From Roseburia sp. AM59-24XD (GTDB lineage Bacteria > Bacillota > Clostridia > Lachnospirales > Lachnospiraceae): 52,867 nt of DNA. The notes below the pieces were generated by a model, which had not been told where the DNA came from, searched no databases, and worked only from the letters and a program-made list of their open reading frames with translations. The stretch covers positions 1 to 52,867 of the forward strand of contig NZ_QUET01000026.1 in NCBI RefSeq assembly GCF_003478445.1, written 5' to 3'. Numbering within the stretch: position 1 is the stretch's first letter; every line of letters starts with the position of its first letter. Position numbers and translations under genes: made by a program. This document shows, one piece after another, positions 3,115 through 52,867 of the stretch.

Positions 3115-4436
3115 ATGAACAATAGAGATTCATTTAAGAATAGATGGGGGTTTATTCTTGCCTGTATCGGCTCAGCAGTGGGCATGGGCAATCTTTGGAT
3201 GTTTCCAACCCGAGTCTCCATGTACGGAGGCGGTTCCTATCTCGTACCTTATTTCATTTTCGTTGCGCTGATCGGCTCCACCGGAGTGATTGGGGAAATG
3301 AGCTTTGGACGTGCCACCAAATCCGGACCTGTCGATGCCTTCGGCACAGCCTGCGAAATGCGTGGTCACAAATGTATCGGACGTATCCTCGGATACATTC
3401 CGGTCCTCGGTTCTCTTGCCATGGCGATCGGTTACACCGTTGTGATGGGATGGATTCTCAAGTATATGATCGGTTCATTTACCGGAACGACACTTGCCCC
3501 GGCTGACGCAGAGGGCTTTGGCACAGAATTCGGCAGCATGGCAACCGCCTTTGGTAACAATTTCTGGCAGCTCCTCGCACTGGCTGCAGGAATGTGCATT
3601 CTAATGTTTGGCGTCAGCCTTGGTATCGAAATGGCAAACAAGATCATGATGCCTGTTTTTTTCTGTCTTTTCGTGATCCTCAGTATTTATGTGGCATTTC
3701 AGCCAGTGCTGTGGACGGCTATAAATACATCTTCCGGATCGACCCAAAAGCTTTCGCTGATCCGACAACATGGATCTTCGCATTGGGACAGGCGTTTTTC
3801 TCCCTGTCGGTTGCCGGAAACGGCACTCTGATCTACGGATCTTATCTCTCCGATTCTGAGGATATTCCGGCTGCTGCGGGCAGAGTTGCCCTGTTTGATA
3901 CACTTGCTGCCCTTCTTGCTGCAATGGTGATCATCCCGGCAATGGCGACAACCGGTGCCAGATTAAATCAGGGTGGACCGGGACTGATGTTTATTTATCT
4001 TCCTGCGTTATTTAAATCAATGCCGGGCGGATATCTGATCGCGATTATCTTTTTCGTTGCTGTCTTTTTTGCCGGTCTGTCCTCACTGATCAATCTGTAC
4101 GAAGCACCGATCGCAACAATACAGGAGCTGTTTCATCTGAATCGTAAAATATCCTGCGGGATCATCGCTGTTATCGCACTCGCAATCTCCATCTGTATTC
4201 AGGGAATCGTATCCGACTGGATGGATATTCTCTCTATCTATATCTGCCCGCTTGGTGCCGGACTTGCAGGCGTTATGTTCTTCTGGGTTTGTGGTAAGAA
4301 ATATGTAGAAACACAGGTAAATACCGGGCGTGAGAAACCGTTCACCAATAAGTTTCTTCCGATCTGCAAATACATCTACTGCCCGATCTGTATTCTTGTT
4401 CTGATCCTTGGCATCGCACTGGGTGGTATCGGCTGA
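3115..4436 (+). CDS. Neurotransmitter:sodium symporter family transporter (frameshifted)
   Basis: An inner-membrane, Na+-coupled importer of amino acids or related compounds; substrate not deducible. The N-terminus has the family's first helix with unwound sodium/substrate site (GSAVGMGNLWMFPTR), and hydrophobic helices run through the whole length. The frame breaks near 3706: the first frame ends shortly after IYVAFQP, and the second resumes with AVDGYKYIFRIDPKAF. Restoring one G gives a continuous 440-residue protein of normal family length. The start at 3115 is chosen over 3100 because GGGG lies at good distance before it. The break is probably a sequencing error. It sits divergent to the EAL gene, with a structured element just downstream. 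Confidence 0.87.
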
Positions 4437-4469
4437 TATATGATTTTACTTTGTAAAAACTTAAAATAC

Positions 4470-4705
4470 CCAGAAGACTGTGATCTGGAAATTGACTTGT
4501 CACTAACGGTTGGATGAACGTGCCTTCCCGTATTTGCCTCTGGGTGTATCCAGGTGTTTCGAAAGGCACTTGCGCTCACCACTACTTACGCCTTGTTTTG
4601 TAAGGCGTTATGTAGTGCTGCGTAGCGCATTGTAGCGCAAGCGTGCCGACCGAAATAACTGGATACACCCAGAGGCCTAAACGATCCAGACACGTTCATC
4701 AATCC
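4470..4705 (+). ncRNA. Structured intergenic element, copy 1
   Basis: Nearly the whole gap between the symporter and thiN folds into one nested structure. Outer stem 4513-4522 pairs with 4691-4700. A perfect 17-bp stem joins 4537-4553 to 4659-4675. Inside, TTTCG/CGAAA (4557-4561, 4651-4655), GGCAC/GTGCC (4565-4569, 4643-4647), TTGCGC/GCGCAA (4570-4575, 4635-4640), CACTAC/GTAGTG (4580-4585, 4612-4617), ACGCCTT/AAGGCGT (4588-4594, 4602-4608) and hairpin TGCG-TAG-CGCA (4619-4629). A 5' block with hairpin CCAGA/TCTGG (4470-4488) and a conserved stretch (4491-4509) precedes it. A second copy at the right end of the window shares the core with compensatory changes. The right arm overlaps the thiN stop codon. 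Function and family are unknown to me; the plus strand is inferred from a G-U pair in copy 2. Confidence 0.7.
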
Positions 4706-5373
4706 TTTGATTCTACAACGATCAAAACACCGGTGCGAAGAAGAATTTCTGCCTTATCCGATGTCTCATCCATCTCATTGCTGATTGCTCTGGCAATCCC
4801 TACTTCAAGCGTATAGTCCTCGATCAGGTATTTCAGCCCTCGCAGTGTCACTCCTGTCACGGTACTTGTCAACGGCAGTAAGGACAGATATTTTCCATAC
4901 ATATCCTGTCTTTCGATTGAAAGCGTACTGTCGGTCAAACGTATCCTGTTACGGCTGTCCACGATATATGCCGGAACCTTCTGCTTCAATGCAAGCATTA
5001 ATATATTAATATTTGCCAGAAAATGATCCAGTCTTCCTCCGGTTGCTCCCAGAAAAGTGATCTCATCCGCTCCCTTTTCAAGGATCCACTCAAGAACAAG
5101 CTGCGTATCCACATAATCCTTCTCCTTGGGATAACGAACCCATTCGCAATGCTCGGAGCCTTCCACCTTTCCCTCACGGTATGCCTCGAGGATTTCAGGG
5201 GATACACTGTCAAAATCTCCCATAAAATAATGAACCGGCATACCAAGCCGGTATGCCGTGTTTAAACCGGAGTCCGCACAGACAACCGTATCATATTCTT
5301 GGGAAGCTGTGTACTCCTCCGCAAAATCCATATTTACTTTTCCACCTGTTATCAATAAAACTTTTCCAAGCAT
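4699..5373 (-). CDS. thiN: Thiamine diphosphokinase
   Basis: Transfers pyrophosphate from ATP to thiamine, giving thiamine diphosphate in the cytoplasm. The 224-residue length fits the family. N-terminal features are LLITGGKVN and CADSGLN, then FMGDFDSV, a YPKEKDYVDTQL segment and LGATGGRLDH, all typical of the catalytic domain; the C-terminal part has the beta-rich substrate-binding fold with TGVTLRGLKY. It begins one base after the PilZ gene stop and closes the long minus-strand housekeeping cluster, a position thiN also holds in many Firmicutes. Its stop codon lies in the right arm of the structured element. Confidence 0.93.
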   Translation of the reverse strand: MLGKVLLITGGKVNMDFAEEYTASQEYDTVVCADSGLNTAYRLGMPVHYFMGDFDSVSPEILEAYREGKVEGSEHCEWVRYPKEKDYVDTQLVLEWILEKGADEITFLGATGGRLDHFLANINILMLALKQKVPAYIVDSRNRIRLTDSTLSIERQDMYGKYLSLLPLTSTVTGVTLRGLKYLIEDYTLEVGIARAISNEMDETSDKAEILLRTGVLIVVESKD

Positions 5374-47862: not shown

Positions 47863-48759
47863 CTACTGTTCATTTGTATATATTTGCACATCAGAACGAA
47901 CATCCCCCTGAACATAAACAACTCCACAGTCTGCCACAGAAGGATCTATGGCATTCTGCAGATCGCCCTTCAGATAATATGTCTTCTGAAGTTCCAGATC
48001 CTCTACTGTCCAGTACTCCAGATCGGTACTTTCCCTGCTGACACGGATCGTGCCATCGTGATTCACCTCCGGAGTGCCACCGGTTGCCCCGGTCGCAAGC
48101 GTGAACAGAAGATTTCTTCCACTTGTTTTCTTGGTATACGTCTTTCCATTTAAGCAAACGGTAATATTCCCATAATATTGCTTATTGATCAAATACGCTG
48201 TCATCGTCATACCGTCCTTTTCCACCAGACTGGTAGAAACCACCAGAGTGGAGACATCTGCAGGCACCGGTGACACGGTTGCTGTCGGAGCAGCCGGCTC
48301 CTGTGTTACCTGTGGTGCTGACGATACACCTGCTGTCGCTGTCGCTGCCGCCGGTGACGTTGATATCGGCGCCGGTGCTGCAGACGAATCCGGCTTACTG
48401 CTTTCCGTCGGTACAGCCGTCTTTTTCTTTTTCACCGTCACGGTACAAACAGCCTTTAGCGATGGCTTCTTTACAGACTGAACCGTTATTTTCACCTTGC
48501 CGGTCTTTTTGGCGGTCACTTTACCCTTCGCTGTAACAGAAGCAATCTTCTTATTACTGCTGCGCCACTTTAATCTGCCCTTTGCCGCTTTTCCTTTTGC
48601 TTTAAGCCGGAAGCTTTTTCCTGCCGTGATCGTCTTTTTAGTGGTATTAAACCAAAGAGCTTTCTTGCCGGCATGGCAGACCGACGAAGCAGCATTAAAC
48701 TGACAAAGCAATGCAATCACCAAAAGAATACATCCTGCTTTTCTGCTAACCCTCACCAT
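47863..48759 (-). CDS. Secreted Ig-like (Big_2) protein with Pro/Thr/Ala linker
   Basis: A 298-residue exported protein. After a signal peptide (residues ~8-27) comes one Big_2-like, Lys-rich domain (about 34-112; GKSFRLKAKGKAAKG and IASVTAKGKVTAKKTG). A low-complexity Pro/Ala/Thr/Ser linker (~112-165) leads to a C-terminal domain (~165-298) with VSTSLVEKDGMTMTAYLINK and DLEYWTVEDLELQKTYYLKG, which I do not recognise. It lies 12 bases before the membrane protein gene and so is probably the first gene of the cps operon. There is no clear promoter in the ~100 bases above it; partial read-through of the upstream hairpin is possible. Confidence 0.75.
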   Translation of the reverse strand: MVRVSRKAGCILLVIALLCQFNAASSVCHAGKKALWFNTTKKTITAGKSFRLKAKGKAAKGRLKWRSSNKKIASVTAKGKVTAKKTGKVKITVQSVKKPSLKAVCTVTVKKKKTAVPTESSKPDSSAAPAPISTSPAAATATAGVSSAPQVTQEPAAPTATVSPVPADVSTLVVSTSLVEKDGMTMTAYLINKQYYGNITVCLNGKTYTKKTSGRNLLFTLATGATGGTPEVNHDGTIRVSRESTDLEYWTVEDLELQKTYYLKGDLQNAIDPSVADCGVVYVQGDVRSDVQIYTNEQ

Positions 48760-51499: not shown

Positions 51500-52387
51500 A
51501 TGGATCAATATATTTTAAGTTGCTGCTCAACAGCTGATCTTTCCAAGGAACAGTTTGAAGCACGCAATATTTCTTATATCTGTTTTCACTACGAGCTGGA
51601 CGGAACCGCTTACGCAGATGATCTGGGACAATCCATGGATTTCAAGGATTTCTATCACCGCATGGCAACCGGTTCGGACACTAAAACATCCCAGGTCAAT
51701 GCAGACGAATATGAATCCTATTTCCGCAAATTTCTGGAGCAGGGTCTTGATATTCTCCATCTGACCCTTTCCTCCGGTATCTCCGGCTCGATCAATTCCG
51801 CTAACATTGCTGCCGAAATTCTCCGCGAAGAATTTCCGGATCGTAAAATATATGTTGTCGATTCTTTATCCGCTTCTTCCGGCTACGGACTGCTGATGGA
51901 TAAGCTTGCCGATCTGCGCGATGAGGGAAAGGATATTGATGAGGTTCGCCGGTTTGCGCTGGATCACCGCCTAAACGCCCAGCACTGGTTCTTTTCTACA
52001 GACCTTTCCTTCTATGTGAAAGGAGGACGTATCTCCAAGACCTCCGGTGCTGTCGGAACCGTTCTTGGAATCTGCCCTTTATTAAATGTCAACAACACCG
52101 GTCATCTGATCCCGCGCTACAAGATCCGCAGCAAGAAAAAGGTCATCGCAGCGATCGTGGAACGTATGAAAGAAAATGCAGAGAACGGTCTGGATTATGC
52201 CGATAAATGTTTTATCTCCCACTCCGACTGCTATGAAGATGCCAAAACCGTTGCCGACAAGGTTGAGCAGACATTTCCACATTTAAAGGGGCATGTTGAG
52301 ATCAATTATATCGGTACCACGATTGGAAGTCATACCGGTCCGGGAACCGTAGCTCTGTTCTTCTGGGGAAAGGAACGTACCGAATAA
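51500..52387 (+). CDS. DegV family fatty-acid-binding protein
   Basis: A cytoplasmic protein that binds a fatty acid; in Gram-positive bacteria the FakB members of this family present the acid to FakA kinase. The 295-residue protein has the two-domain DegV fold: a first strand YILSCCSTADLS, a TSQVN loop, and TLSSGISGSINSANIA, with Ser residues that hold the carboxylate. SLSASSGYG follows, then the second domain with FYVKGGRISKTSGAVG and IGTTIGSHTGPGT near the C-terminus. AAAGGAGGTC precedes the ATG. It has its own promoter and terminator. No fakA gene is in the window. Confidence 0.93.
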   Translation: MDQYILSCCSTADLSKEQFEARNISYICFHYELDGTAYADDLGQSMDFKDFYHRMATGSDTKTSQVNADEYESYFRKFLEQGLDILHLTLSSGISGSINSANIAAEILREEFPDRKIYVVDSLSASSGYGLLMDKLADLRDEGKDIDEVRRFALDHRLNAQHWFFSTDLSFYVKGGRISKTSGAVGTVLGICPLLNVNNTGHLIPRYKIRSKKKVIAAIVERMKENAENGLDYADKCFISHSDCYEDAKTVADKVEQTFPHLKGHVEINYIGTTIGSHTGPGTVALFFWGKERTE

Positions 52388-52447: not shown

Positions 52448-52558
52448 ATTTTCATTAAACTCAAACTTCGCACACCGATTATTGGATTGCGCCCATACTA
52501 TTTCTTATGTCCGAGGAAAATTAATATAGATTTTTGCCTCAGGATATCTGACGAAACC

Positions 52559-52858
52559 GTGAGCTGGTGGTATTAAAATTGTCTTGTCACTTACGGATTT
52601 CAAAAAGTCTAATTGCTTTGCTGCTTTGATTTTTGATAAACGCATCCTGCCGTACTCGCTCCGAGGTGGGATTCAGATGTTTCGAAAGGCACTTGCACCC
52701 GCCGGTACTTACGCCCCATACTAAATAAAATATTCATATCTTACTGTAAAATCAATATGGCGTTATGTACCGCTGCGTGGTGCAGTGGTAGCGGGAGCGT
52801 GCCGTCCGAAATAGCTGAGCTCACCTACGGAGCTCAGTCGTACGGATGCGTATTTATC
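52559..52858 (+). ncRNA. Structured intergenic element, copy 2
   Basis: Same architecture as the element at 4470-4705. Core: TTTCG/CGAAA (52680-52684, 52807-52811), GGCAC/GTGCC (52688-52692, 52799-52803), CCCGC/GCGGG (52698-52702, 52791-52795), CGGTAC/GTACCG (52703-52708, 52767-52772), ACGCC/GGCGT (52711-52715, 52759-52763) and hairpin TGCG-TGG-TGCA (52774-52784). The outer stem has its own sequence: GATAAA, CGCATCC, CCGTAC, CTCCG, AGGTG and TCAG (52635-52676) pair in order with the right side (52815-52858). The 5' block (GTGAGCTGG at 52559-52567, then 52578-52596) matches copy 1. A G-U pair in the small hairpin favours the plus strand. A weak promoter-like pair (CTGACG near 52548, TATTAA near 52571) precedes it. 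No protein is encoded. Between 52448 and 52558 I see nothing else. Confidence 0.7.
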
Positions 52859-52867
52859 AAAGCATTG

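Follow-up and report, generated by a model that had tools for sequence, protein, structure and literature searches.

Two regions of a 52,867-nt contig of Roseburia sp. AM59-24XD (Lachnospiraceae; NZ_QUET01000026.1), which was analysed over its whole length and is referred to here as the window, carry copies of a repeated sequence that folds strongly, and they raise the question of whether this repeat is a mobile DNA palindrome, a structured RNA, or both. A preliminary description, made from the sequence alone, had proposed a structured, repeated element with two related copies, and this proposal holds: the copies are related in a blastn comparison within the window (E values of 2e-11 and 1.5e-8), and both are far more stable than shuffled sequences when folded (z-scores of -10.7 and -5.1). 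Our results demonstrate that both window copies bear a conserved RNA fold at the tip of a long DNA palindrome, that this palindrome, taken together with its ends, constitutes a non-autonomous transposon (MITE), and that the core is present in about a quarter of the sampled genomes of the family, within unrelated arms and within MITEs of differing ends. We consider it probable that a structured RNA core, functional or selfish and made from one strand, is carried as cargo by palindromic mobile elements.

Alignment to 10 full-length copies from two other genomes identifies copy 1 (about 4438-4709, + strand) as a shortened remnant of a foldback MITE that lacks both termini and also matching portions of both arms. 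It is flanked by convergent genes encoding a sodium-dependent transporter (3594-4436, +) and a thiamine diphosphokinase (4699-5373, -); the stop codon of the latter lies within the 3' arm of the element (4699-4709), so that the element supplies the end of the gene. The RNA core of copy 1, by model span 4549-4662 (+), scores 125.1 bits (E 8e-26) with the covariance model R1, for which it was one of the 12 building sequences, and 103.7 bits with a second model, R2; the minus strand at the same place scores only 26 bits with R1. Within the core, and on the + strand throughout, the consensus structure, with letters checked, places the 5' strand of helix P2, GGCAC, at 4565-4569 and its partner GTGCC at 4643-4647. 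Two sets of covarying pairs follow in helix P3, namely the lower helix GCGCT (4572-4576) with AGCGC (4624-4628), which reads GCACC/GGTGC in copy 2, and the middle helix CACTAC (4580-4585) with GTAGTG (4612-4617), which reads CGGTAC/GTACCG in copy 2. By the consensus structure, positions 4586-4611 hold an internal loop, TT/TAT, around the apical hairpin ACGCCTT-loop-AAGGCGT, and a small GNRA-tetraloop hairpin, GC-GCAA-GC, assigned by the loop census given below, lies at 4635-4642. The preliminary description had named two helices as changing between the copies while keeping their pairing. The exchange of CACTAC/GTAGTG for CGGTAC/GTACCG is correct and belongs to the covarying consensus pairs; the other helix, TTGCGC/GCGCAA, although possible in copy 1, is not the pairing that is conserved: its GCGCAA overlaps the GC-GCAA-GC hairpin, and the conserved helix is GCGCT/AGCGC.

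Copy 2 is a foldback MITE that is cut by the window end (52460-52867, +), as judged from its alignment to full-length copies. It starts at the terminal repeat CTCAAACTTC at position 52460, not at 52559 as had been drawn previously, when copy 1 was also given slightly narrower bounds. Its terminal inverted repeat, CTCAAACTTCGCACA (52460-52474, +), was recognized from the places of the motif CTMARACTTCSCACA in the metagenome-assembled genome (MAG) G001 and from the ends of IS4-family elements. The heptamer CATTAAA (52453-52459, +) abuts this terminus and is likely the left target duplication, 7-bp duplications being found in relatives; the right one would fall beyond the window end. The core of copy 2 (52672-52818, +) has a longer apical loop and scores 108.3 bits with R1 and 85.2 bits with R2, both of which were built with copy 2 among their sequences, and its GNRA hairpin, GC-GGGA-GC, lies at 52791-52798 (+; loop census, letters checked). 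A gene encoding a DegV-domain protein (51500-52387, +) precedes the element. The stretch 48161-48185, within an ORF, also resembles the terminal repeat and was taken as a chance match.

The preliminary description could match the element to no known family, and a search of Rfam 15, which it had proposed, likewise yields no match for either window copy at the gathering score. In a permissive scan only sub-threshold microRNA models were obtained for copy 1 and nothing for copy 2; matches to MIR5635, mir-2013, Mahella-1 and Hammerhead_HH10 were rejected as far below the gathering score. At 20 other core loci, nothing was found at the core at gathering level, the only matches elsewhere in these loci being tRNA and TwoAYGGAY RNA; the latter (RF01731, 98.6 bits) lies at 1796-1961 of locus L158, about 180 nt from the core. 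We found no publication on the element among the openly accessible papers covered by the search, and it may nevertheless have been published.

Full copies of the foldback MITE are quasi-palindromes of about 530-560 nt. They were found in G001 and G300, two of three genomes compared from a single Lachnospiraceae genus; the third does not match. The termini follow CT[CA]A[AG]ACTTC[CG]CACA, most copies starting with CTCAAACTTCGCACA, CTAAGACTTCCCACA or a close variant and ending with the complement. G001 contains 41 blastn places, and with copy 2 as query it was the only one of 299 sampled family genomes to match at E 1e-6. A scan of genome contigs gave one true match, L006, at a contig end of the same MAG; the other four of the five loci (L002-L005) were judged chance matches. 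The 16-mer TTTCGAAAGGCACTTG gave a single chance match (L001) in viral contigs, three further exact patterns gave no matches, plasmids yielded none, and phages yielded only 29-bp chance matches.

Target duplications were analysed in 23 elements with both ends defined, comprising 17 hand-picked long copies and six short forms and leaving aside contig-end fragments and copies with no clear ends; the set contains neither copy 2, which is cut, nor copy 1, which lacks its termini. The flanking 7-mers were identical in 12 of the 23 elements and agreed at six of seven places in two more. Permuted flanks, over 2000 rounds, reached agreement at six or more places in a mean of 1.6 and a maximum of 6 elements, against the 14 observed. 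Eleven of the 12 exact duplications read T.....A. All six short forms, of 44-222 nt, have exact duplications; these shorter, core-less MITEs have therefore moved too, and neither the interior nor the core is needed for transposition. Four palindromes of 44-91 nt (L079, L080, L081 and L083) contain little beyond the terminal repeats and have exact 7-bp duplications. In three copies from G300 (L040, L041 and L042), the terminal repeats depart strongly from the consensus, although within each copy the two ends are altered in the same way. The 360-nt MITEs were considered as pre-insertion forms and rejected, since L033, at least, appears to have lost the core by deletion between short direct repeats. 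In 17 copies, the longest ATG frame spans 25-154 aa, too short for a transposase of about 457 aa, and the frame lengths are not common to the copies. The element thus combines terminal inverted repeats (TIRs) common to an autonomous transposon, target duplications, no room for a transposase and many copies, as a MITE does, and the earlier suggestion of a mobile element that lacks its protein is borne out.

The presumptive autonomous partner belongs to the IS4 family. The motif CTMARACTTCSCACA is present in 70 of 397 family genomes and was found at 34 + 35 places in G001, compared with none for a reversed control; in other genomes of the family it bounds an insertion sequence of about 1.59 kb. 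The transposase of this insertion sequence is an IS4-family DDE enzyme (model NF049925, 589.8 and 615.4 bits in two copies against a cut-off of 250) with the Pfam domains DDE_5 and DDE_Tnp_1. The first 22 nt, CTAAGACTTCCCACACCAATAA, are common to one MITE copy (L008) and one insertion sequence from another genome (L096). In the three insertion sequence copies with both ends, the flanks agree at only five, four and two of seven places, so that a target duplication matching that of the MITE was not observed among them.

The core has a far wider distribution than this MITE. R1 covers the central 114 positions of its 12 sequences, and in the search of Lachnospiraceae genomes that the preliminary description had suggested, with nine candidates scored per genome, it matched 101 of 397 genomes at E 0.01. 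Outside the genus, among the matches listed, the whole model was spanned, with scores of 59-83 bits. R2 was built from 75 matches, 67 of them distinct, and, when searched against 392 genomes from the order, matched 65. In a sample of the phylum, R2 matched 4 genomes out of 299, all four among the family genomes sampled previously; since the rest of that sample gave no match, the search doubles as a false-positive control under stricter filters. When 150 candidates were scored for each genome, 15 matches were obtained in G393, 15 in G208 and 5 in G192, and the number of matches per genome ranges from 0 to 15.

The consensus of the core consists, in this order, of P2 (GGYRC/GYGCC), a U-rich joint, P3, the hairpin AGC-GNRA-GC and P2'. 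P3 in turn comprises a freely covarying lower helix, the stretch CGYCGGUAC/GUACCGCURCG, the internal loop CUUA/UUAUG and an apical hairpin whose sequence is unconstrained; the internal loop may resemble the 11-nt tetraloop receptor. Across 67 distinct cores, which are not independent, as several come from one genome, 95.6% of 2503 pair cells hold standard pairs, compared with 64.4% after shuffling, and 790 pair cells are changed on both sides, compared with 213, in a covariance-model alignment whose fitting to the model favours these pairing figures. The covariation score is 0.820 (shuffled 0.216; slid at most 0.113), and two-sided change is seen in 36 of 38 pairs, barely above the shuffled value of 31.3. 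Covariation had been claimed before from the two window copies; on their own these would be weak evidence, and the case for pairing is carried by the family-wide alignment.

A test that is independent of pairing is provided by the census of the small loop, which is GNRA in 64 of the 67 cores (GAGA 18, GGGA 12, GAAA 12, GCAA 9, GGAA 7, GCGA 6), the others being ACAA (2) and GCAG (1); the third place of the 64 GNRA loops is never a pyrimidine. In addition, G-U exceeds A-C in the core by 67 to 15 in the covariance-model alignment, which leans to G-U, as the inner arm pairs of the same alignment indicate (35 to 4), so that the true imbalance may be smaller. A MAFFT alignment with RNAalifold pairs gives 116 to 31, and RNAalifold may likewise prefer columns that contain G-U. 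The constancy of the GNRA loop together with the excess of G-U over A-C points to selection on the RNA of the + strand. The arms behave differently. In outer arms aligned in a way that does not favour G-U, G-U and A-C stand at 44 and 37, and these arms are either a DNA palindrome or too young for a bias. Within the genus, a strand-neutral criterion applied to an alignment of 57 sequences accepts 160 of the 166 consensus pairs, 65 of the accepted pairs having at least two Watson-Crick types, and the changes show no strand asymmetry (44 G-U to 40 A-C types; 30 to 33 singletons); with no G-U excess there, selection on RNA and mutual correction of DNA arms are indistinguishable within the genus. 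Between subfamilies, interior stretches are better conserved than sub-terminal ones. The earlier view that covariation marks a selected RNA structure therefore applies to the core; the long arms carry no RNA-strand signal, and their covariation may be a property of the DNA palindrome. At the one locus inspected for a promoter, none stands out.

The arms are particular to each locus. In 56 copies, the two arms align with each other at a median score of 19, compared with 6.5 between loci. In G192, cores that are 84-93% identical over 84-90 nt have no blastn similarity beyond them at E 1e-10, and each of four copies has its own mutually complementary arms. The boundary CA[G...C]GT is present at both sides in 14 of the 56 elements, compared with 6 of 56 for the next joint context, and its C is paired. 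Two cores in direct tandem at L134 (1501-1613 and 1656-1754) lie 43 nt apart and have similar arms.

Four orthologous comparisons could be made between G393 and G399. In two of them, the element has 0/139 and 2/140 substitutions and no gaps, whereas its flanks have 10/120 and 20/131 substitutions together with 40 and 35 gap columns. In the third, the element (7/135) is not better conserved than its flanks (10/155), and in the fourth the element has 4/146 substitutions plus 53 gap columns at its outer edge, against 8/128 in the flanks. Because two comparisons thus show no better-conserved element, our confidence in the reading of the core as an RNA cargo was lowered by a shade, and it remains probable. 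In the pair L177/L205, flanks included, two pairs are changed on both sides and still paired, one is changed on one side and six are broken. At the locus of L161, the genome G095 lacks the core, and identities of 75% and 68% leave the junction unreadable. At this locus, the MAG G399 has a divergent pair with half of each hairpin missing, which may be due to assembly; likewise, L208 and L203, from the same fragmentary MAG, have divergent pairs whose hairpins lack half of their sequence, at the apex, through real hairpin deletions or assembly artefacts.

The core is also carried by other mobile DNA. In G701, it lies within a 211-nt MITE with the terminal repeat TAGGCGTTTGCGAAAC; of 12 such elements, the nine of 211 nt all contain the core and three, of 139, 99 and 67 nt, lack it. 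Exact duplications of 9-11 bp flank 7 of the 12, a number reached in none of 5000 random draws of flanks. A search for an autonomous partner with TAGGCGTTTGCGAAAC as terminal repeat found none. Further end sequences were recognized by eye in G668 and G291. The core is thus carried by at least two unrelated mobile palindromes, and probably by more. In G668, the cores of L244-L250 lie inside larger repeats with the terminal sequence ATACTTTATTGTTT, and their flanks are repeated too, giving mosaic palindromes. In G291, the core units of L259-L262 have further inverted repeats alongside (GGACAGGCCCAAATTGCAC-like), and in L261 two cores form a further divergent pair, additional to those counted below.

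With respect to neighbouring genes, for which script-predicted ORFs were used, 19 of the 56 copies lie between genes that run with the core, and 20 between genes that run against it; convergent genes flank 10 copies and divergent genes 3, with 4 left unassigned; 49 of the 56 are therefore placed between co-directional or convergent ORFs. This random orientation to the genes speaks against a cis-regulator. Among the matches listed, 17 pairs of cores lie less than 700 nt apart, with gaps of 103-497 nt, and 15 of them are divergent, two tandem and none convergent; up to 1100 nt, one further divergent and two further tandem pairs are found among these matches. Most of the listed copies are single. 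No linked protein gene was found among the neighbours, the largest cluster of the 175 ORFs compared covering 4 of 57 loci.

The strong preference for divergent pairs, with no convergent ones, would be expected if the cores were non-coding RNA genes transcribed divergently from a common promoter region, that is, an ordinary multicopy sRNA of the host that became mobile by accident, and the strong conservation of two of the four orthologous copies would fit this too. Most listed copies being single, the expansion of the G001/G300 and G701 sets with MITE ends and target duplications, and the range of 0-15 matches per genome all argue against such an ordinary host gene, which we regard as unlikely.

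Another explanation would place the element entirely at the level of DNA, as a large foldback of the REP/BIME type whose arms correct each other by template switching. It would account for near-perfect palindromic arms with no G-U bias, for the symmetry of strands within the genus and for the fact that neighbouring pairs change in blocks, and the divergent pairs and the placement between co-directional or convergent genes are as described for REPs (PMC3733652). We nevertheless hold it to be distinctly unlikely: G-U exceeds A-C in the core in both alignments, the small loop is GNRA with a third place that is never a pyrimidine, and correction between the arms would be expected to erase the conserved asymmetric loops and the extra 3' hairpin.

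It is very unlikely that the repeat acts in cis as a 3' element scattered downstream of genes, whether as a terminator, an insulator or a stabiliser of mRNA. The preponderance of co-directional and convergent ORFs, with only three divergent cases, and the strong hairpins agree with this role, but the strand-specific core has no preferred orientation, and a terminator or stabiliser would need neither the conserved GNRA hairpin nor the internal loop. The core is hardly credible as an RNA guide left behind by an IS605/IscB/TnpB-like element after loss of its protein, as the preliminary description had considered: such a guide would likewise be a structured RNA on a protein-less mobile element, but neither the window copies nor the core at the 20 other loci match an Rfam model at gathering level, HEARO and IS605 models included, TIRs and target duplications are present although IS200/IS605 insertions are not known to create target duplications, the insertion sequence with matching ends is of the IS4 family, and no neighbouring protein family extends beyond the 4 of 57 loci.

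The reading that we prefer, an RNA core carried as cargo, would work as follows. The core would be a non-coding RNA, functional or selfish, made from one strand, and would spread as cargo of whichever palindromic element hosts it, IS transposases (here of the IS4 family) moving the element via its terminal repeats. Transcription would yield a hairpin whose long stem, formed by the arms, varies between copies; selection, or selfish maintenance, would act on the core, which this stem would carry and might also set free. Trimming of the stem by a double-strand-specific RNase, RNase III for example, could conceivably release the pre-folded core, by analogy with the long stems of pre-ribosomal RNA, although we consider this step rather doubtful. 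As to function, an RNA that acts in trans by binding one cellular protein is our leading, if tentative, guess, because the orientation of the core to neighbouring genes is random. It is also possible, though we would not lean towards it, that the core represents a class of compact RNAs with a tertiary fold and is a mobile RNA gene that switches between unrelated palindromic carriers, MITEs of different insertion sequences among them, spreads as divergent pairs, is released from its stem, acts in trans, with a protein or the mobile elements themselves as its target, and extends across the Lachnospiraceae; on that reading, the conserved internal loop ACUUAG/UUAUGU may be a docking site for the GNRA loop. 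How similar cores reach unrelated arms within one genome is left unexplained by the cargo reading, and this counts against it.

MITEs of the IS4 family are known, for example, the IS231-derived cassettes of Bacillus cereus. The element described here resembles them in its TIRs of an IS4-family insertion sequence, the lack of room for a transposase, target duplications, multiple copies and intergenic location, and differs from them in being fully palindromic with a conserved RNA core at the apex, and in that this core also occurs in a MITE with other ends (G701). The bcr1-type repeats of Bacillus cereus are likewise repeated, foldable, mobile and possibly transcribed. HEARO and IS605-orfB RNAs are also structured RNAs on mobile DNA; the element here gives no match to their covariance models and has another transposition signature.

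PMC3733652 describes CGTC-REPs with stems of 8-9 bp and loops of 4-5 nt and GTAG-REPs with stems of 5-13 bp, both with small loops; they lie between co-directional or convergent genes and form head-to-head dimers, and some are nested in longer palindromes. The terms Firmicutes, Clostridi and Eubacterium do not appear in the main text of that paper. GTAG- and CGTC-REPs and REPINs are thus similar to our element in being palindromic and multicopy, in placement, in head-to-head dimers and in nesting in longer palindromes. The boundary CA[G...C]GTC(C) may echo the CGTC tag, and the dimers and the placement of CGTC-REPs have their counterparts in the 15 of 17 close pairs that are divergent among the matches listed and in the 49 of 56 placements. 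In contrast, the stems here are not of 8-9 bp with loops of 4-5 nt, as in CGTC-REPs, but of about 20-60 bp and carry a conserved RNA fold of 85-115 nt, and no neighbouring gene family recurs beyond 4 of 57 loci. A survey of human gut microbiomes names four examples of palindromic RNAs, mostly or entirely from Bacteroidetes, three of which are predicted terminators (PMC8040213). These are likewise structured, palindromic and from the gut; the four named examples set them apart from our element, and overlap with unnamed ones is possible.

Its DNA makes the element a MITE or a REP-like palindrome, and its core makes it a structured RNA. Our findings thus join palindromic interspersed DNA repeats with structured RNAs, two subjects that are usually kept apart. 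They also hold a practical warning, since many copies in the MAG G001 stand at contig ends. Occurring in about a quarter of the sampled genomes of the family, with 15 matches in some of them, the core is abundant for an RNA that has no Rfam model. The element offers a testable case for why bacteria keep such repeats, in that the core, and not the arms, bears the signature of selection on RNA.
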